DNA from: Pseudomonas sp. R-28-1W-6
GTDB taxonomy: Bacteria > Pseudomonadota > Gammaproteobacteria > Pseudomonadales > Pseudomonadaceae
DNA length: 64,000 bases
NCBI RefSeq assembly: GCF_009799925.1
Contig: NZ_WELK01000001.1
Span: 496,001 to 560,000, forward strand
Direction of reading: 5' to 3'
The notes under the pieces are model-generated. The model saw only the letters and a program-made list of their open reading frames with translations. It was not told the origin of the DNA and did not search any database. Positions 36,115 to 59,900 of the stretch are shown here, piece after piece (the first letter of the stretch is position 1; every line of letters starts with the position of its first letter). The position numbers and the translations under genes were made by a program.

Positions 36115-36241
36115 GAATGGCATGTAGCCCTTCGATGCTCCTATGTGTGTTCTAGTGTTGGCAGATCTCTGAACCCCGCCCTAGCGGTTCAGAATTGAAC
36201 CCCGGTCTTCTCCTCCCCATACGAAGTCCGGGGTTTTTTTT
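36115..36241 (+). ncRNA. ersA: Candidate ErsA small RNA (Spot 42 position)
   Basis: The polA-engB interval is where spf lies in enterobacteria and ersA in P. aeruginosa. Here it holds an AlgU-type promoter, then about 126 bases with no convincing gene, a single-stranded pyrimidine stretch (TCTTCTCCTCCCCATACG), and a terminator CCCCGG..CCGGGG with eight T. Known ErsA is about 130 nt and uses a C/U-rich segment to pair with mRNAs such as algC. An upstream hairpin GAACCCCGCCCTAGCGGTTC is also visible. The exact 5' end is inferred. Confidence 0.8.
36198..36241 (+). terminator. Intrinsic terminator of the ErsA candidate
   Basis: AACCCCGG pairs with CCGGGGTT around a pyrimidine-rich loop and is followed by eight T. 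The loop is the likely mRNA-binding segment. Confidence 0.88.
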
Positions 36242-36244
36242 GCT

Positions 36245-36366
36245 CACGATTTGCTGCGCGTCGGCCAGGCGGCGTTGAAATTGGGCTCGGGCTGCTCATT
36301 TACAGCACGTAAACTCCGCGCCCTCGCCCAATTTCGCCTTGCCTGATCCTAGCTCGCGAAATCGGG
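36245..36366. repeat. Stop-codon inverted-repeat element, copy A3
   Basis: The core GCGCGTCGGCCA, GGGCTCGGGCTGCTCATTTACA and CGTAAACTCCGCGCCCTCGCC matches A2 and A4. Outer arms CGATTTGC and GCGAAATCG pair. The last codons and TAG stop of engB lie inside the right arm. About 122 bases. Confidence 0.8.
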
Positions 36367-49629: not shown

Positions 49630-49829
49630 CGGTGTCGGCGGCGAGGTGTTGCGGGGCGCGCATCATCGCACGGGCCCCGGCGGCGAGGACATACTTTGCA
49701 AAAGCCTGCTGGTTGAGTGCGGCGCCCCCCCTTGCCTATCCTGCGCACGTGACACCGGGCCCCTCTGACGGCTGATCGCCGCCATGTCGGAGTCACAGCT
49801 GGTACAACTTCGACTGCAAGGAGGGGCTC

Positions 49830-50825
49830 ATGCACGCCTTACAACCGTTTCTCTTCGCCGACCTGCTCGGCACCGCCGTGTGGCTCTGGCTGCTGTTCCT
49901 GGGCGTGGTGATCGCCCTGCTGGCCTTCGACCTGGGCGTACTGCATCGCCACGACCGCGAGATCGGCGTCAAGGAAAGCCTGGCGCTGTCCGCCGGCTAC
50001 ATCAGCGCCGGCCTGCTGTTCGGCCTGTGGGTGTATTTCCAGAAAGGCGGCGACGCCGGCATGGACTACCTGACCGGCTTCCTCATCGAGAAATCGTTGT
50101 CGATGGACAACGTGTTCCTCATGGCGATGATCTTCAGCTTCCTGGCCATCCCCCGCCAGTACCAGCACAAGGTGCTGTTCTGGGGCATCCTCGGCGTGAT
50201 CGTGCTGCGCGCCATCATGATCGGCCTGGGTGCCGCGCTGATTCACCAGTTCAGCTGGATCCTCTACGTGTTCGGCGTGTTCCTGGTGCTCACCGGAATC
50301 AAGATGCTGTTCGCCAAGGTCGACGCCGAGCCGGACCTGGCGGACAACCCCCTGGTCAAGTTCCTGCGCCGCCACCTGCGGGTCACCGAGCGCCTGCACG
50401 GGCAGCGCTTCTTCGTGCGCCAGGCGGATGCCGGCGGCAAGCGCGTGCTGTGGGTGACCCCGCTGTTCCTCGCCCTGATCCTGATCGAGTGCGCCGACCT
50501 GGTGTTCGCCGTGGACAGCGTGCCGGCGATCTTCGCCATCACCCAGGACCCCTTCATCGTCTACACCTCGAACATCTTCGCCATCCTCGGCCTGCGGGCC
50601 CTGTACTTCGCCCTGGCCGCTCTGATCCACCGCTTCGCCTACCTGAAGTACGCCCTGGCCCTGGTGCTGGTGTTCATCGGCAGCAAGATCTTCCTGGTCG
50701 GCATCATCGGCAAGATTCCGCCGGTCATCTCCCTCGGCGTGACCCTCGGCCTGCTGATCGGCGGGGTGCTGCTGTCGCTGTGGAAGACCCGCAACCTGCC
50801 GCCCGTTACGCAGTCCGAGAACTGA
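49830..50825 (+). CDS. TerC family membrane protein
   Basis: 331-residue inner-membrane protein with about nine helices, of the TerC/Alx group now linked to manganese or calcium export. Family motifs with charged residues are in DLGVLHRHDREIGVKES, FLIEKSLSMDNVFL and ECADLVFAVDSVPAIFAI. AAGGAGG precedes the ATG. The 200 bases upstream contain no yybP-ykoY manganese riboswitch that I can recognise. Confidence 0.92.
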   Translation: MHALQPFLFADLLGTAVWLWLLFLGVVIALLAFDLGVLHRHDREIGVKESLALSAGYISAGLLFGLWVYFQKGGDAGMDYLTGFLIEKSLSMDNVFLMAMIFSFLAIPRQYQHKVLFWGILGVIVLRAIMIGLGAALIHQFSWILYVFGVFLVLTGIKMLFAKVDAEPDLADNPLVKFLRRHLRVTERLHGQRFFVRQADAGGKRVLWVTPLFLALILIECADLVFAVDSVPAIFAITQDPFIVYTSNIFAILGLRALYFALAALIHRFAYLKYALALVLVFIGSKIFLVGIIGKIPPVISLGVTLGLLIGGVLLSLWKTRNLPPVTQSEN

Positions 50826-51191: not shown

Positions 51192-52781
51192 TCAGCCCGG
51201 CTGTTGCCGGCTCCAGGCCTGCTCCACCAGCAGCTGCAGGCGTTCGGCCAGGCCGGCCACGTGCTCGGCGCTGCTGCGGCTCTGGTCGCTGGCCACCACG
51301 GTGCTCTCGTTGGCCTGGCGGATGCCGCACAGGTTGCGCTGGATATCGTCGCCGACCGCGCTCTGCTGCTCCACGGCGGCGGCGATCTGGATGCTCATGT
51401 CGCTGATCTGGCCGACCCGCTGATTGATCCCGCCGAGGGCCTGGGCCGCCTGCAGGGCCTGTTCGACGCTGGCGCTGGCTTGCTGCTGGCTGCGCTGCAT
51501 GGCCGCCACCGCCTGCCCGGTGCCCTGCTGCAGGGTGCCGATGATGGCGTTGATCTCGGCGGTGGACTGCTGGGTGCGCGAGGCCAGCCCGCGCACTTCG
51601 TCGGCGACCACGGCGAAGCCGCGCCCGGCCTCGCCGGCCCGCGCCGCCTCGATGGCGGCGTTCAGCGCCAGCAGGTTGGTCTGCTCGGCGATGCCCTGGA
51701 TCACCTCCAGCACCTGGTTGATCTTCTGCCCGTGCAGCTCCAGCTGGTGGATCACCTGGCTGCTCTGCTGCACTTCGCCGGCCAGCGCGGCGATCAGCTG
51801 GCGGGTCTGCTCGACCAGCTGCAGGCCATTGGCGGTTTCCAGGTCGGCCTCGCTGGCCGCGCTGGCGCTGAGCTGGGCGTGGCGCGCCACCTCCTGCACG
51901 CTGGCCGCCATCTGGGCGATGGCGCTGGCCACCTGGGCGGTCTCGCCCTGCTGCTGCAGGCTGGCCTGGCTGCTGCTGTCCACCGCGGCGGCCAGCTCGC
52001 TGGCTTCCTGGCTGAGCTGGCGCGCCGAGTCGGCGATGCGCCCGACCACCGACCCGGATTCGGCCTGCAGGCTGCGCAGGGCGAAGGCCAGCTGGCCGAA
52101 CTCGTCGTTGCGCGCGGTGTACACCCACTGGCTCAGCGGGTTGTCGGCGATGCGTCGGGCCTGCTCGGTCAGTGCCCGCAGCGGGCGCAGGCCGAGCTGC
52201 AGCAGGCCGCCGAGCAGCCCGGCCAGGGCCAGGCCACCGGCCAGGGCGGGCAGCATGGGCAGCGCGCCGCCCAGGCCGAGGGCCGTGGCCAGCGCCAGCA
52301 CCGGCGCGCCCGCCAGCAGGCCGAGGCGTGCGGCCAGGCCCAGGCGCGGTGGGCGCAGCTGGCGCGGCGTGCGCCCGGCCCTCAGCTCGGCGTAGAGCTG
52401 CTCGGCGCGGGCCACCAGGGCCGGTTCGGCGCGGGTGCGCACCGACTGGTATTCGACCACCTGGCCGTTGCGCACCACTGGCGTGGCGTAGGCGCTGACC
52501 CAGTAGTGGTCGCCGTTCTTGCAGCGGTTCTTCACCAGGCCCATCCAGGCCTGGCCAGCCTTGAGGGTCTGCCAGAGGTGAGCGAAGGCCGCCGGCGGCA
52601 TGTCCGGGTGGCGCACGATGTTGTGGTTGTGGCCGAGCAGTTCGGCCTCGTTGTAGCCGCTGATGGCGATGAAGTCCGGGTTGACGTAGCTGACCGCGCC
52701 CTTGAGATCGGTAGTGGACAGGATGTTGGCGTGGGCGGGCACGTCCACCGCACGCTGGCTGACCGGCAGGTTGATTTTCAT
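51192..52781 (-). CDS. Aer-type energy taxis methyl-accepting chemotaxis protein
   Basis: 529-residue receptor. An N-terminal PAS domain ([39 protein letters not shown]) would bind FAD or another redox cofactor. Two hydrophobic stretches around residues 165-205 form a membrane hairpin, followed by a HAMP-like linker and the signalling domain with the tip [35 protein letters not shown]. The ATG overlaps the stop of the upstream GGDEF-EAL gene (ATGA), so the receptor and the c-di-GMP enzyme are made together. Confidence 0.92.
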
Positions 52782-55039
52782 TGTTGTAGTTCCGCAGGTA
52801 CGGGGTGGGGAGTGGCCAGCGGCGCGTGGCCGCACAGCCCTTCGAAACGCTCTGCGCCGCTGAGCAGGCGCTGCAGCTCGGCGGCCGGGCGCGGCCGGCT
52901 GAACCAGTAGCCCTGGGCCAGCCGGCAGCCCTGCTCATGCAGGAAGTCCAGGTGCTCGGCGCGTTCCACGCCCTCGGCCACCACTTCCAGGCCGAGGCTG
53001 TGGCCGAGGCCGATGATCGCCCGGCTGATCGCCGCCAGTTCGCCATCCTGCGGCGCGCCGCCGATGAAGCTCTTGTCGATCTTGAGGATGTGCAGGGGGA
53101 AGCGCTTGAGGTAGCCGAGCGAGGAGTAGCCGGTGCCGAAGTCGTCCAGGGCCAGGCGCACGCCGAGGCCGGCCAGCTCGCGCAGGGCGATCAGGGTGGC
53201 GGTGCAGTCCTGCATCAGCTGGCTCTCGGTGATCTCGAGGATCAGGCTGGCCGGCGGCAGGCCGCTGGCCAGGAGGATGTCGGTGACCCGGGCGACGAAG
53301 TCGTCCTGCTGCAGCTGGCGGCTGGACAGGTTCACCGAACAGCGCAACTGCGCCTGCCCGGCCAGCTGCCAGGCACGCACCTGGCGGCAGGCCTGGGCCA
53401 GCACCCAGTCGCCGACCCGGAGGATCTCGCCGGACTCCTCCAGCGAGGGGATGAACGCCTGCGGCGGCACCAGGCTGTCGCCCTGGCGCCAGCGCAGCAG
53501 GGCCTCGACGCCGATCAGCTGGATCTCGCCCTGCTCAATGTGGCAGATCGGCTGGTAGTGCAGGACGAATTCGTCGCGGTCGAGGGCCTGGCCCAGCGCG
53601 CTCTCCAGCTCCAGCTGATAGCGCGCGCTGGTCTGCAGATCGGCGCTGTAGCGGGCGAACTGCGCCTTGCCGGCCTGCTTGGCGCGGTACAGGGCGAGGT
53701 CGGCGGCCTGCAGGGCATCCTGCGAGGCGTCGCTGGCCTGCAGCGCGGCGATGCCGATGCTGGCGCTGACCACCAGGGTCTGCTCGGCCAGGTGCAGCGG
53801 CAGGTGCAGGCTGTCGAGCATGCGCTGGGCGACCTGTTCGGCGTCGTTGGCGCTGGCCATGTCGGTGAGCAGCACGACGAACTCGTCGCCGCCGAAGCGG
53901 CACAGGTGGTCGCCGGGGCGCAGGCACTGGGCCAGGCGCCGGCCGACTTCGACCAGCACCTGGTCGCCGCACTGGTGGCCGAGGCTGTCGTTGATCAGCT
54001 TGAAGCGGTCGAGGTCGATGAACAGCAGGGCGGCCTGGCGCGCGCCGACCTTGCCCAGCTGCTGCAGGGCCTGGGCCAGCAGTTCGTCGAGGCGCAGGCG
54101 GTTGGCCAGGCCGGTCAGCGGGTCGTGGCGGGCGGCGTGGCGCAGCTGCTGCTCGACCGCCTTGCGCGCACTCACATCGCTCTGCGAGCCGGCGATCCGG
54201 CGTTGCCCGCCGGCGTCGGTCTCCGCCACGCCGCGCGCCAGCACCCACAGGTAGTCGCCGGCGCTGCGGCGCATGCGGTATTCGTGGTGAAGCAGGGCGC
54301 TGGCGCCGCGCAGGTGGGCGTCGATGGCCTGGCGCAGGCCGGGCAGGTCGTCCGGGTGGACCCGCGAGAACCAGCTGGCGCTGCCTTCGCCGAGGCTGTC
54401 GCGGCTCAGTCCGAGCATGCCGGCCCAGCGCTCGGAGACGTACAGCCGGTCGTGTTCCAGGTGCCAGTCCCAGATGCCGTCGTTGGCCCCGCGCAGGGCG
54501 CGGGCGAAGCGCGCCTCGCTGTCTTCCAGGGCCTTGCGCTGGGCCGCGCTGTAGGTGTCGATGGCCAGGGTCATGTCGAAGAACACCACCTTGAGCAGGC
54601 TGGCCAGCAGCGTGCGCTGTTCGGCGTCGGGGCACAGCTCGGCGAGCATCGAGTCGAGGTACAGGCGGTAGCCGCCCAGGTACCACTTCAGCTCGACCCC
54701 GGCGACCTGGTGGATCAGGCCGATGCGCAGGCGGCTGGCCACGTAGTCGCCGTCGTAGGGGCCGCGCCACAGGCGCTGGTAGTAATCCAGCTGGCTGTGC
54801 TTGAGGCGGGCCAGGGTGGCCTCGTCGCTGATCAGGCTGGCCGGCCCGGGAAACTCGCCGAGGTGCCGGTACAGGCGCTCGACGAACGTCTGCTGGGCGT
54901 GGTCCACGGCCGCCGCGGCGCCGTTCAGGAGCTGCGCATCCATGCCCTGCCAGTCGAGCAGGCGGCAGCGCTCGTCGACTTCCGCCTGGTCGAGGCCGAT
55001 GCGGCGCATCAGTTCCTCGAGTGTTGCCACTGCGCCCAT
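52778..55039 (-). CDS. Globin-coupled PAS-GGDEF-EAL c-di-GMP enzyme
   Basis: 753-residue cytoplasmic protein. Residues about 1-165 are a sensor-globin domain with the heme-ligand His110 in [30 protein letters not shown] domain follows at about 180-305 ([33 protein letters not shown]). The GGDEF domain at about 310-475 has the intact motif [11 protein letters not shown]. The EAL domain at about 485-735 has VEALLRW, EITES and [19 protein letters not shown], which are complete. Both synthesis and breakdown of c-di-GMP are possible, with O2 or NO binding to heme as the likely input. GGAGG precedes the ATG; a structured leader with a terminator lies upstream. Confidence 0.92.
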
Positions 55040-55071
55040 ATGTCCTCCCTGTTGTTGTTTTTCGCGGGCAT

Positions 55072-55122
55072 AAAAAAAGCGCCGGACGGCGCGTTCTCGG
55101 GGAACGGGGCGTCTCGGCGCTT
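55072..55122 (-). terminator. Intrinsic terminator inside the leader of the globin-GGDEF-EAL gene
   Basis: On the minus strand AGCGCCG-A-GACG pairs with CGTC-CGGCGCT, enclosing a second hairpin CGTTC/GAACG, and is followed by seven T. It ends 33 bases before the start codon of the downstream gene. It may terminate the small upstream gene or attenuate the GGDEF-EAL gene. Confidence 0.85.
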
Positions 55123-55128
55123 CGTCTT

Positions 55129-55178
55129 GCAGGCCCATGCGTCCTGCCCGGCAAAGCCGGTCTCCGCCTGTGGGCGGA
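55129..55178 (-). promoter_or_regulatory. Three tandem hairpins: candidate structured leader
   Basis: On the minus strand TCCGCC-CACA-GGCGGA, then CCGG-CTTTG-CCGG, then GCAGG-ACGCATGGG-CCTGC follow one another almost without spacers, directly before the terminator at 55072-55122. The layout is that of an aptamer followed by an expression platform. It does not match the c-di-GMP-I (GEMM) consensus as I know it. Identity unknown. Confidence 0.45.
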
Positions 55179-55200
55179 ACCTACTGCGGTCTTTTCTACC

Positions 55201-55512
55201 CTATTCCGGCGGCGCTGACAATTCGCCGAGCAATTGCTCCAGGCGCTGGCGCAGGTCGGCCAGGTCGCGGGACTTGAAGGCATGCCGGGAACGCTCGAGC
55301 ACTTCGATGGCGTCGGCCAGGCTGGCATGCAGGGTGGCGTGGGCCGGCAGCGGCTGATCCTGTAGCCAGCCGCACAGGGGCGCCTGGCTACAGTCTTCCG
55401 GGCGGGCCAGCACGGTGCAGTCCAGGCCTTCGCCGTGCAGCAGGCGGCGCAGGCGGCAGGCCAGCTGCTGGTCGCTGTTGGCGACCAGTATGGTGGGGGG
55501 CGTTCGCGGCAT
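55201..55512 (-). CDS. Small receiver-like protein
   Basis: 103-residue protein. The N-terminal third (TILVANSDQQLACRLRRLLHGEGLDCTVLARPEDC) reads like the first strand-helix-strand of a response-regulator receiver, but the phospho-acceptor Asp and later motifs are missing; the C-terminus is helical (AIEVLERSRHAFKSRDLADLRQRLEQLL). It could be a degenerate or truncated receiver. It lies between the pilus ATPase and the globin-GGDEF-EAL gene on the same strand. Confidence 0.65.
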   Translation of the reverse strand: MPRTPPTILVANSDQQLACRLRRLLHGEGLDCTVLARPEDCSQAPLCGWLQDQPLPAHATLHASLADAIEVLERSRHAFKSRDLADLRQRLEQLLGELSAPPE

Positions 55513-55611
55513 GACTACGGGACAGGCGCTGGATTTCGGACGGGCACTCTAGGTGGCCCTTGGCCAGCTGGTTTTGACCTGGATCAACGCCGCGCGCGCC
55601 GTGGCGAAGCT

Positions 55612-56745
55612 TCAGCTGTCGCGCAGCAGGTGCAGGTTGCCGCCCTCGCCGGCGCCGCCGTGGCCGAGCTTGATGCGCAGGGTCAGGTCGGTGCGCGAGT
55701 CGGCGTGGCGGATGGCTTCCTCCATCGAGATGCGCCCGCTCTCGAACAGCTCGTAGAGGTGCTGGTCGAAGGTCTGCAGGCCCTGCTCGCGGCCGCGGCC
55801 GATGGCCTCGCGCAGGTCGTCGAGCAGGCCGCGCTGGATCAGGTCGCGGATATGCGCGGTGCCGAGCAGCAGCTCCACCGCCGCCACCCGGCGCTGGTCG
55901 AGAGCCGGCACCAGGCGCTGGCCGACGATGGCCAGCAGGTTCTGCGCCACGTCGGCGAGTATCTGCGCGCGAGCCTCCTCGGGGAAGAAACGCACGATGC
56001 GCTCCAGCGCGTGGCTGGTGCTGGTGGCATGCAGGGTGGCCAGGCACAGGTGGCCGGTTTCCGCGTAGTGCAGGGCGTGCTGCATGGTGTCGAGGTCGCG
56101 GATCTCGCCGAGCATGATCACGTCCGGCGCCTCGCGCAGCACGTTGCGCAGGGCCGCGGCGAAGCTGTGGGTGTCCAGGCCGACTTCGCGCTGGTCGATC
56201 ACCGAGCGCTGGTGCTGGTGGAGGAACTCGATCGGGTCTTCGATGCAGATGATGTGCCCGGACTTGTTGCGGTTGCGCAGGTCGAGCATGGCCGCCAGGG
56301 TGGTCGACTTGCCCGAGCCGGCGGCGCCGATCACCAGGATCAGGCCGCGGTCGAGCAGCGCCAGCTTGCCCAGCTGGGGCGGCAGGCCGAGGGCCTCCAG
56401 GCTGGGGATCTGGCTCTTGATCAGGCGCACCACCATCGCGACCTCGCCGCGCTGGTAGTAGATGTTGATGCGAAAACGCCCGGAGCTGGCCACGCTGACC
56501 GCCAGGTTCATCTCCAGGTCGCGCTCGAATTCGGCGACCTGGCGCTCGTTCATCAGCTGGTAGGCCATCTGCCGCACCTCGCCCGGCTTCAGCGCGGCGA
56601 CCGGCAGCGGCACGGTATGGCCTTCGAGCTTGATCTGCGGCGGCGTGCCGACGCTGAAGAACATGTCCGAGCCGCCCTTTTCATAGAGCGTCTGCAGCAG
56701 CGGGTAGACATCCGGCTGTGTGGCTGGCGTGAGCGTGTCGGTCAT
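55612..56745 (-). CDS. PilT/PilU-family type IV pilus motor ATPase
   Basis: 377-residue hexameric ATPase that would act in pilus retraction. Walker A is GAAGSGKST, Asp box IEDPIEF, Walker B VIMLGEIRD, His box ETGHLCLATLHA. The IEFLHQHQ and QREVGLDTHSF phrases and the long C-terminus are closer to PilU than PilT as I remember them. It stands alone here rather than as a pilT-pilU pair, so it may be an additional paralogue. The Walker A has Ala where PilT has Thr (GATGSGKST). Confidence 0.9.
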   Translation of the reverse strand: MTDTLTPATQPDVYPLLQTLYEKGGSDMFFSVGTPPQIKLEGHTVPLPVAALKPGEVRQMAYQLMNERQVAEFERDLEMNLAVSVASSGRFRINIYYQRGEVAMVVRLIKSQIPSLEALGLPPQLGKLALLDRGLILVIGAAGSGKSTTLAAMLDLRNRNKSGHIICIEDPIEFLHQHQRSVIDQREVGLDTHSFAAALRNVLREAPDVIMLGEIRDLDTMQHALHYAETGHLCLATLHATSTSHALERIVRFFPEEARAQILADVAQNLLAIVGQRLVPALDQRRVAAVELLLGTAHIRDLIQRGLLDDLREAIGRGREQGLQTFDQHLYELFESGRISMEEAIRHADSRTDLTLRIKLGHGGAGEGGNLHLLRDS

Positions 56746-56832
56746 GGTGGCCCCTGGGCTGAGCGAGAAAGCTGCCTTCAGTACAGTGCATCCGCCGGCA
56801 TTCGACCAGAGGGCCGAGTGTCGCGCCCAGCG

Positions 56833-56926
56833 CCTGTTCACGATCTCCCGTAGGGTGCGCCGTGCGCACCAGAGGCCGGTGCGTGGTGTTGTGGTGCGCA
56901 CAGCGCACCCTACGCGAGGCTCTGAG
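56833..56926. repeat. Composite repeat: GTAGGGTGCGC copy 3 flanked by ends of the stop-codon element
   Basis: CCTGTTCACGATCTCC at 56833-56848 is identical to the left end of copy A4. It is followed at once by GTAGGGTGCGC..GCGCACCCTAC (56850-56913), and then AGGCTCTGAG, close to the A4 right end AGGTTCTGAG. The second palindrome thus replaces the interior of the first element. Confidence 0.7.
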
Positions 56927-56987
56927 CCCTGCCGGCCTGCGCACCTTGCTGGTAACCTAACGGCCCCGACAGGATGCCCGGCCGCCC

Positions 56988-59900
56988 ATGCTCAACCTCT
57001 TCCACGCCCCCGACCTGGAAACCCTCGGTGCCCTGGCCACACGGCTGCTCGCCCAGCCGCTGCAAGACCCCTTCGCCCCGGCGCGGGTGGTGGTGCCGAG
57101 CCAGGGCATCGGCCGCTGGCTGACCCTGCAGCTGGCGCGCGAACAGGGCATTGCCATGCAGCTGGAGGTGCAGCTGCCCTCGGCCTTCGTCTGGGAGCTG
57201 TCGCGGCTGGTGCTCGGCCAGCTGCCCGAGCAGTCCGCCTTCACCCCGCTGACCCTGAGCTGGCGCCTGTATGACTGGCTGTGCGAGCCGGCCAACCTCG
57301 ACCGCGCGCCGCGCCTGGCGCGCTACCTGGAGGGCGGCGACGAACGCCGCCGGTTGTCCCTGGCCAGCCGTATCGCCGACGTGTTCGACCAGTACCTGCT
57401 GTATCGCGACGACTGGCTGGCCGCCTGGGAACGCGGCGAACTGTGTGACCTCGGTGCCGACGAAGCCTGGCAGGCCCTGCTCTGGCGCGAGCTGACCGCC
57501 GATGGCCACCCGCACCGTGCGCGCTTGCTCGACGAGCTGCTGCAGCGCCTGTACGACCCCACGGCCATTGCCGGCCTGCCCGAGCGCCTGCTGGTGTTCG
57601 GCATCAGCAGCTTGCCGCCTCATCACCTGCGCGTGCTCGAAGGCCTGGCGCGGCATACCGAGGTGGTGATCTTCGCCCTCAACCCGTGCCGCGAGGCCTG
57701 GGGCGAGATCCGCGACATCCGTGAGCTGGCCAGGCAGCCGGAGCTGAGCCCGGACGAGTGGTATCTCGACGTCGGCCACCCGCTGCTGGCCAGCCTCGGC
57801 AAGCAGGGCCGCGACTTCTTCGACAGCCTGTTCAGCCTGGCCTCGGCTGAGGGCGGGCAGGAAACCGGGCTGTATTCGGAAGACGCCGACCTGCACGACG
57901 ACAGCCTGCTGCACGCCCTGCAGCACGATATCCTGCGGCTCAGAACGCGTAGTGCGGACGAGCGCATCGAGCTGCGCGCGGACGACCGTTCGCTGGAGCT
58001 GCATATCGCCCACTCGCCGCTGCGCGAAGTGGAAATCCTGCATGATCAGCTGCTCGCCCGCTTTGCCGCCGAACCCAGCTTGACCCCGGATCAGGTGGTG
58101 GTGCTGACCCCGGATATCGAGCGCTACGCGCCCTACATCGAAGCCGTCTTTGCCCCGCGCGAAGGCGCCCCGCGCATCCCCTTCAGCCTGGCCGACCGCA
58201 GCCTGCGCGCCGAGCTGCCGCTGCTGGAAGCCTTTATCGACCTGCTCGCCCTGCCCGAAAGCCGCTTCGCCGCCGAGGAAATCCTCGCCTGGCTGGAGCA
58301 GCCGGCCATCGCCCGCCGCGCCGGCATCGAGCCCGAAGACCTGCCGCTGCTGCGCGACTGGCTGCGCGATGCCGGTGTGCGCTGGGGCCGCGACGCCGGC
58401 CACCATGCCGACCTCGGCCTGCCGGCAGACAACGCCTTCACCTGGGCCCAGGGCCTCGACCGCCTGCTGCTGGGCTTCGCGGCGCCACCGCAACTGGCCG
58501 GCGAGGGCATTCCCCTGCTCGGTGACAACCTGCCGCTGGATGCCCTGGAAGGCGCGCGCGGCCAGTTGCTCGGCCGCCTGTGCGCCTTCGTCGGCAGGCT
58601 CGCCGGCCTCGCCGAGAGCCTGCAGCGTGCGCGCCCGCTGGCCGACTGGGCGCTGGACCTGCAGGCGCTGATCGACAGCCTGTTCGACGAGCGCGAAGCC
58701 GGCGACACCCTGCTCCTGCTCAGCCAGGCCTGTGCCGCCCTCGCCCGCCAGGCCGCTGATGCCGGCATCGCCCGGCCGCTGGAGCTGGTCCTGGTACGCC
58801 AGCAACTGGGTACGGCGCTGGAAGCCGGCGGCGGCGCCTCGGGCTTCCTCACCGGCGCGGTGACCTTCTGCACCATGGTGCCGATGCGCAGCCTGCCGTT
58901 CCGCCTGGTCTGCCTGCTCGGCCTGGACGACGGCGCCCTGCCACGGCGTACCCCAGCGGCCGGCTTCGACCTGATCAGCCACAAGCCGCGCCGCGGCGAT
59001 CGCGCGCGACGCCTGGACGACCGCTACCTGCTGCTGGAAACCCTGCTCTCGGCACGCGACGGCCTGTACTTGAGCTACGTCGGCCGCGACCCGCGCGACA
59101 ACGCGGTGCTGCCGCCCTCGGTGCTGGTCAGCGAACTGCTCGAAGCCGTCGACATCACCGCCATCGCCTCTTGTGGGAGCGGCTTCAGCCGCGATGCAGA
59201 CCCCACCGACGCATCGCGGCTGAAGCCGCTCCCACAGGAGCAGAAAGCCAGCGCGGCGATCACCGTGGCCCATCCGCTGCAACCCTTCGCCCCCGGCAAC
59301 TTCCAGCAATCGGGCCAGCAGTTGGGCTTCTCCAGTTCCTGGTTCCGCGCCGCCCAGCGCCTGGCCGAGGCGCCGCTGCTGACCCCGCCGCCGTTCATCA
59401 GCCAGCTGCCGGAGCCCGGCGAGGACTGGCTGTGTATCGAGCCGGCGCAGCTGCTGCTGTGCTTCCGCAATCCGGCGCGCTTCCTCCTCGAGCAGCGCCT
59501 GGGCCTGCGCCTGGCCGATGCCGAGGAAGCCATTGCCAGCGACGAGCCCTTCGCCCTCGAAGGCCCGGCCCGCCGTGGCCTGCGCCACCTGGCCCTGCAG
59601 GCGGTGGAGCGCGACTGGAGCGAGCAGCAGGAACGGCGCATCGCCCGCGCCGCCGGCTGGCTGCCCACCGGCGAGCTGGGCCACGCCCTGTGGGGCAAGC
59701 TGCGCGGCCCGGTGCGCGCCTTTGCGCCACGGCTGTTCGAGGCGCGCCCGGCGGAAGCGCCACAACCGCTGCTGGTGGATATCAGCTTGGCCGGCGTGCG
59801 CCTGCATGGTTGGCTGGATGGGGTGACCAGCGCCGGCCTGTTCGACTGGCGGCTGAATGCGCCGAGCGCCTGGGACCTGCCCGGCTTCTGGCTGCGCCAC

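Follow-up and report, generated by a model that had tools for sequence, protein, structure and literature searches.

The 161-nt gap in front of a globin-coupled c-di-GMP enzyme gene of Pseudomonas sp. R-28-1W-6 probably encodes a cis-regulatory RNA that attenuates transcription of an oxygen/aerotaxis operon and is switched on by some ligand or protein. Attenuation by such an RNA had been suggested by the original prediction, and computation now supports it by conservation together with the downstream gene, linkage, a promoter-like site, separate copies at tandem genes, covariation and an antiterminator whose predicted fold excludes the terminator. We infer that the switch is regulated and that its bound state is the on state. 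The signal could relate to oxygen, redox or energy state, since both kinds of target gene serve such sensing: judging by sequence comparison, this type of leader precedes the globin-coupled c-di-GMP enzyme in most lineages seen and an Aer-like chemoreceptor in Stutzerimonas.

Genomic context

Here the window is the whole 64,000-nucleotide stretch of DNA that was analyzed, and positions are counted from its first letter. The host genome is 4.27 Mb in size, and its family is represented in our genome set by Pseudomonas, Stutzerimonas and Halopseudomonas. On the minus strand a PilT/PilU-type ATPase gene is followed by a gene for a 103-aa protein, the gap, a globin-PAS-GGDEF-EAL gene and a chemoreceptor gene, which we call Aer-like for its presumed resemblance to Aer of E. 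coli. The features of this locus are as follows.

55201-55512, minus strand: small upstream gene, 103 aa, with a receiver-like N-terminal part, a conserved C-x5-C and a C-terminal helical motif
55200-55040, minus strand: gap of 161 nt between the stop codon of the 103-aa gene (55203-55201) and the ATG of the globin gene (55039-55037)
55050-55044, minus strand: ribosome binding site AGGGAGG, read from the sequence, with the start codon at 55039
52778-55039, minus strand: globin-coupled sensor of 753 aa, protoglobin-PAS-GGDEF-EAL (Pfam PF11563, PF08447, PF00990, PF00563), the first gene behind the leader
51192-52781, minus strand: Aer-like chemoreceptor of 529 aa (PAS, HAMP, MCP signal), its start overlapping the globin-gene stop (ATGA)

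An A-rich AAAAACAACAACAGGGAGG adjoins the ribosome binding site (55044-55062, minus strand); it is present in only a few close relatives and presumably resembles Hfq/Crc target repeats. Two known RNAs lie elsewhere in the window, both on the plus strand: the Pseudomon-1/ErsA small RNA at 36135-36249, with a strong Rfam match of 114.5 bits, and a terC leader RNA (RF03067, 48.6 bits) at 49747-49799, just 5' of an open reading frame (49830-50825) that presumably encodes a TerC-family membrane protein.

Predicted fold, terminator and promoter-like site

The original prediction had described the minus strand as three consecutive hairpins, a seven-T terminator, GGAGG and an ATG 33 nt further on, and both the sequence and the predicted fold agree with it: after the three hairpins comes a terminator stem that is long and bulged, with T7, the last T of which (55072) lies 33 nt from the ATG, leaving 32 nt in between. 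The description of the gap as structured also held. Its 161 nt fold at -68 kcal/mol, more stable than any of 200 dinucleotide shuffles (z = -3.36), and the stretch ending six bases past the T run likewise outdid 200 shuffles (z = -4.05). The elements of the leader are listed below.

55193-55221, minus strand: promoter-like pair TTGTCA (55221-55216), N17, TAGAAA (55198-55193), overlapping the 3' end of the small gene
55159-55181, minus strand: hairpin P1, GGUUCCGCC/GGCGGAGACC, from the predicted fold
55148-55160, minus strand: hairpin P2, CCGGC-UUU-GCCGG, alternative to the antiterminator, in the terminated fold
55119-55157, minus strand: antiterminator hairpin, GCUUUG (55157-55152) pairing with CGAAGC (55124-55119), from covariation, complementarity and predicted fold
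55072-55123, minus strand: intrinsic terminator, stem GAAGCGCCG.../...CGGCGCUUU (55123-55076) and T7 (55078-55072), from sequence, scan and fold

In P1 one pair changes on both sides, from C-G to U-A, in five of 28 sequences (alignment A1), and the P1 sequence is variable in other clades. A simple terminator scan detected the terminator with 5 stem pairs; it is not significant alone, because 3 sites were found in 5 kb compared with 1.5 (sd 1.2) in shuffles. Although it would lie beyond the terminator, a GCCCG or GCCTG comes after the T run (55061-55071 in the window, minus strand) in 45 of 83 sequences, and a search for a partner gave no consistent pairing. Pairing of this GCCYG with leader CGGGC fits the window and by eye fails in other clades, and was dropped.

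Transcription from the promoter-like pair would start near 55187-55185. A strict scan found no sigma-70-like promoter in 52000-57000; TTGTCA-N17-TAGAAA fails it for want of the final T that the scan requires in the -10 element. Nor did strict scanning find anything promoter-like in the 32 nt between the terminator and the ATG, in keeping with the original prediction. Similar pairs with a 17-nt spacer lie 5' of the RNA in 50 of 83 distinct sequences, compared with 2.2% in letter-shuffled upstream stretches, with four of the 50 (L061, L062, L064, L117) looking like other places or chance. A pair with an 18-nt spacer is present in 15 of the 83, three of them also among the 50. In relatives the pair takes the form of a TTGnC-type -35 and a TAgAAn or CAAAAT -10. 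The TTGTC of the -35 also codes for conserved residues of the small upstream protein; codon constraint as the sole reason for the pair is disfavored because in Stutzerimonas the pair sits past the 3' end of the chemoreceptor gene.

A predicted antiterminator conserved by pairing

The antiterminator had not been noticed in the original prediction and was found in this analysis. A leader segment GCUUUR is complementary to YRRRGC, the start of the terminator 5' arm, and the two would form a long hairpin that is mutually exclusive with the terminator in the predicted folds. In the window this hairpin encloses an internal loop CCGG/AAGA and a distal hairpin P3, GCAGG-A-C...G-GG-CCUGC (55147-55129). 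In an alignment of 83 distinct sequences (A3), GCUUUR/YRRRGC complementarity is complete (6 of 6) in 81, all at a single offset, whereas the chance for shuffled 6-mers is about 0.0005; the two exceptions, L004 and L029, carry GCUAU and have a mismatch. Standard pairs make up 98.6% of 1079 antiterminator cells, compared with at most 47.6% in slid-partner controls.

Five antiterminator pairs change on both sides, amounting to 44 such cells in A3 compared with 10.9 in shuffles. These are 14-44 (G-C to A-U, 8 cells), 19-39 (G-C to U-A, 21), 20-38 (3), 21-37 (3) and 25-32 (C-G to U-A, 9). All 8 A-U cells at 14-44 come from Stutzerimonas, a single clade, and may represent one event; pair 19-39 is broken in 13 sequences. 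Further pair types show no excess (12 compared with 11.8 in shuffles), and purines at three of the partner positions are also needed for pairing with the terminator U tract. Three genomes of Halopseudomonas type have second copies whose distal stem is UGGG/CCCA rather than CAGG/CCUG.

The collecting pattern of A3 required GCU[U/A]U[A/G]CCG, the P3 letters and AG and left partner columns 43-50 free, so that the invariance of the patterned columns, internal loop included, is by construction. The patterned letters are nonetheless shown by all 30 loci gathered by DNA similarity (GCUAU in two), and a P3-only pattern found GCUUUGCCG in 39 of 40 globin leaders but not in that of G934, which lacks GCUUU; the loci behind both checks derive from matches to similar queries. 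P2 was considered as the conserved structure and rejected as weaker than the antiterminator: of the four P2 pairs that were tested, three are lost, in 4, 15 and 8 of the 83 sequences, among them Stutzerimonas and the second Halopseudomonas-type copies, where the persistence of GCUUU is partly an effect of the collecting pattern.

Folding energies were predicted for 80 of the 83 sequences; the three omitted have GU for GC in the arm, which the search string missed. With the terminator 3' arm absent, the antiterminator was part of the best predicted fold in 51 of the 80 and cost 0.67 kcal/mol on average, while 29 best folds did without it, and in one sequence including it would cost 12.5 kcal/mol. 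Once the terminator was complete, the antiterminator was 5.3 kcal/mol worse on average and stayed in the best fold of only two sequences, both of which the T-run rule had cut short. Unfinished window RNA starting at 55187 has the antiterminator in its best predicted fold; for an RNA six bases longer at its 5' end and reaching slightly further 3', the antiterminator falls 0.5 kcal/mol short of the best. The predicted energetics fit the behavior of an attenuator needing a helper.

Distribution and linkage to target genes

As a DNA query, the gap matched 40 of 398 genomes of the genus. We inspected 31 loci from DNA searches of 57 relatives and of the genus. Small gene and RNA are present in 30 of them. 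Behind the RNA, 28 of these 30 have the start of the globin gene; of the other two, L026 has lost most of that gene and L012 breaks off with its contig. Among the stronger matches, the conserved part begins at about position 13-20 of the gap and extends to the T run, while the terminator's upper stem and loop vary. Conservation in relatives that have the same gene, which the original prediction had made a condition, is strong. Locus L017 is longer by about 60 bases in the part from the T run to the globin start codon, giving a gap of 221 nt instead of about 160. A DNA match in G009 (E 9.8e-4), where the small gene is absent, was set aside as chance.

A model of the RNA core (R1), built from 26 sequences, gave 97 matches in 92 of 398 family genomes and 7 of 19 genera. 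Directly 5' of a globin-GGDEF-EAL gene and on the same strand lie 76 of the 97, at a median of 89.5 nt (range 73-176 nt). The other 21 comprise 17 in Stutzerimonas, one before a chemoreceptor gene (G866) and three rejected as coding sequence (G085, G345 second match, G846). In all 11 of the 17 Stutzerimonas loci that were examined, the RNA precedes an Aer-like chemoreceptor gene, and nine of the 11 have a match to a short form of the small gene in between.

A separate scan covered 84,980 species genomes, with species overlapping the first set, and used a degenerate pattern that omits the window's own linker letter. It found 40 instances on 38 stretches, whose titles name Pseudomonas, Stutzerimonas, Halopseudomonas or, in two cases, a Gammaproteobacteria MAG; the latter two are the G855 and G870 contigs of Pseudomonadaceae. 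The first gene behind the RNA is a globin gene in 21 instances, the small gene and then a chemoreceptor gene in 12 and a chemoreceptor gene in three, while four reach the end of their stretch and none has another gene. A T run follows 39 of the 40, the exception being at the end of its stretch. R1 hit six of 293 genomes of the order, all within the family, and R2 in 369 genomes of the class found the window and three weak, coding-like matches without a T run, both under a strict filter that loses weak matches. Within the window's own genome no further copy was convincing: the next best matches have E 0.028 (R1) and 0.145 (R2), and three of the six next-best R2 matches, which were examined, have no T run.

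Separate RNA copies stand at tandem genes in some genomes of Halopseudomonas type, and in G855 and G819 the two tandem globin genes have one each. G866 has a second copy before a chemoreceptor gene, and a further globin gene on the same contig is without RNA. Among 20 larger loci, the small gene precedes the RNA in 19, and a chemoreceptor gene follows in 17, in 16 after the globin gene and in one (L222, G103) that has lost most of the globin gene and retains the small gene, the RNA and an intact chemoreceptor gene. L214 and L215 have small gene, RNA and globin gene and no chemoreceptor match, and in L221 (G934) the globin gene has a degenerate leader and neither neighbor gene. At L227 (G309) the globin protein match stops at residue 550 and the chemoreceptor match begins at once. 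No leader was found at eight examined globin genes away from the locus (L149-L155, L161), one of them in a genome with the RNA at another globin gene, nor at three relocated Stutzerimonas globin genes.

Most Stutzerimonas-type loci examined have a second, diverged leader with a distal CAGGAC...GGGCCUG hairpin and a GAAGCGCC terminator before the other tandem Aer-like gene. Its kinship with the leader is a judgement by eye, because the models score it weakly (R2 best 20.4 bits). This GAAGCGCC leader lies upstream of the first chemoreceptor gene in L102-L105 and L108; L109 differs there.

The small upstream protein

The protein encoded just upstream has a nearly invariant C-x5-C (DCSQAPLCRWL in relatives) and a C-terminal motif VLERTRHAFKSRELGxLRxRL. 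Stutzerimonas retains only the C-terminal half, as a separate short gene, and the Cys half is absent. No Pfam or NCBIfam family matched the small gene above cut-off, and its short form gave three weak Pfam matches below cut-off. The predicted structure model is of medium quality (mean pLDDT 73.3), and a fold search with it returned weak matches, several of them to receiver domains or fragments and none at E <= 0.001. Among the 57 relatives, strong matches to the small gene are found only in the four genomes that have the RNA, a count that ignores weak small-gene matches in G013 (second) and G043 and a weak RNA match in G009. The small protein is a candidate partner of the RNA.

Proposed mechanism and alternative explanations

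In the mechanism that we propose, RNA polymerase would start at the promoter-like pair that overlaps the 3' end of the small gene, and make P1 first. The antiterminator hairpin would form next, GCUUUR pairing with the first bases of the terminator 5' arm. If this hairpin is left unheld, the growing terminator would reclaim these bases and transcription would end some 33 nt short of the globin gene. Should a ligand or protein grip the hairpin via the internal loop (CCGN/WAG) and the distal hairpin, readthrough would follow, and both the globin-GGDEF-EAL gene and the chemoreceptor gene would be transcribed. An oxygen-sensing c-di-GMP enzyme and an aerotaxis-type receptor would then be expressed under one RNA switch. 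It is quite possible, if somewhat short of probable, that these leaders form a new Pseudomonadaceae-specific family of oxygen- or redox-responsive antiterminator RNAs, which couples biofilm signaling and aerotaxis to one intracellular signal, the reader of that signal being either the RNA, as an orphan riboswitch in its own right, or the neighboring C-x5-C protein, as a new type of RNA-binding partner. This orphan RNA is short and well conserved and has a predicted recognition loop, so that searches for a ligand or protein could begin at once.

Direct binding of a small molecule, with the antiterminator hairpin and its internal loop serving as the aptamer that turns the operon on, is a reading that we consider possible but less likely than not. 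The internal-loop letters are identical in all 30 loci gathered by DNA similarity, the predicted energetics are typical of a switch and the RNA is common to two different kinds of target gene, yet an aptamer made of just one hairpin and its internal loop would be a small one, the range is one family in the searches made and Rfam holds no match. Alternatively, the antiterminator may be stabilized by a protein, for which the adjacent small protein is the best local candidate and its C-x5-C would suggest redox or oxygen dependence; this too we regard as possible rather than probable. Strong matches to small gene and RNA occur in the same four of 57 relatives, the two adjoin in 19 of the 20 larger loci, and the C-terminal motif is the part kept in Stutzerimonas. 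However, this co-occurrence may just reflect inheritance of the locus as a block, the Stutzerimonas form has lost the half with the cysteines, and neither family nor structure searches above cut-off (or at E <= 0.001, with a medium-quality model) give the protein a known fold.

A point against attenuation is that globin genes at other loci are without the RNA, also in genomes that have it elsewhere. Two further readings dispense with attenuation. The leader could mainly be a trans-acting small RNA of about 115 nt with its own promoter-like site and terminator, the globin operon being transcribed by leaky readthrough or from further upstream. Its very conserved sequence and its retention where the globin gene is deleted agree with this, but we consider it unlikely: in all 36 instances with enough downstream sequence the RNA immediately precedes a globin or chemoreceptor gene of its own strand, tandem genes have separate copies, and a conserved antiterminator would be needless for a plain small RNA. 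The simpler reading offered by the original prediction, a plain terminator of the small gene with the globin operon served by its own promoter behind it, has become highly improbable. Terminators between two genes are common and the site count of the simple scan is little above the chance rate, but here the upstream structure is conserved with covariation and a promoter-like site precedes it, while strict scanning gave no promoter-like pair in the 32 nt from the T run to the ATG. An attenuator that some ligand or protein switches on is the reading that we prefer.

Comparison with known systems

Riboswitches of the c-di-GMP-I (GEMM) class control c-di-GMP genes, and the kind of target gene is alike in the leader. 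The original prediction had noted a misfit to this class, and the Rfam search it proposed bears this out: no family in Rfam 15, c-di-GMP-I and c-di-GMP-II riboswitches included, reached its gathering score in the gap region, and at E <= 10 only four matches far below gathering scores appeared (STnc130, mir-Ro6-3, sroD and Pseudomon-groES), none of them a riboswitch and none c-di-GMP-I. A known RNA family, and with it feedback via a known c-di-GMP riboswitch, was therefore rejected. Parts of the leader RNA resemble what we take to be the guanidine-III (ykkC-III) string CCGGUCAGGACAAGACGGCGC. The guanidine-III aptamer (RF01763) was rejected as well, with no Rfam match at E <= 10 and with P3 contradicting it: in the leader, CAGG pairs with the CCUG of an extra hairpin, with compensatory changes.

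Antitermination held by a protein is known in Pseudomonas. ANTAR proteins act as antiterminators in the amiE, nasF and eut leaders, and their targets are described as two stem-loops with loop residues A1 and G4 (PMC3369936). As in the leader, the target stem-loop overlaps the proximal stem of the terminator. An ANTAR target as described there was rejected, as two loops with A1 and G4 were not found by eye in our alignments, where columns 25 and 32 of A3 close a variable loop of 3-6 nt and the P1 loop varies in length and letters.

In its general plan the leader resembles attenuating riboswitches with an antiterminator, which likewise combine a promoter-like site, a structured leader, an antiterminator sharing bases of the terminator 5' arm and an open reading frame behind. 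The leader has a terminator 5' of the start codon and an alternative hairpin that uses the terminator 5' arm and is conserved by pairing; it differs in matching no Rfam family.

The closest published counterpart may be Pseudomon-GGDEF, which Table 1 of Weinberg et al. 2010 (PMC2864571) lists for Pseudomonas as ambiguous as an RNA, probable as cis-regulatory and ambiguous as a switch, with no Rfam number. The likeness lies in the genus, the probable cis-regulatory role and GGDEF in the name, and, compared by table description rather than by alignment, the leader may be this motif. The original prediction had raised an undescribed cis-regulatory RNA as a possibility; its cis-regulatory part is supported by computation, and "undescribed" is uncertain because this survey lists an ambiguous RNA without an Rfam entry. 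In the literature searched, whose reach mostly excluded subscription journals, we found no published description of the leader and no mention of Pseudomon-GGDEF besides the 2010 table; a term search of the main text of PMC2965389, on premature terminators, gave no GGDEF, chemotaxis, globin or diguanylate. Within the reach of these searches, the element has at best appeared in print as an ambiguous, uncharacterized entry, to which the antiterminator, the second target gene and the range are added here. A motif that the table had left ambiguous in 2010 may gain a structure, a mechanism and a second target gene from our analysis.
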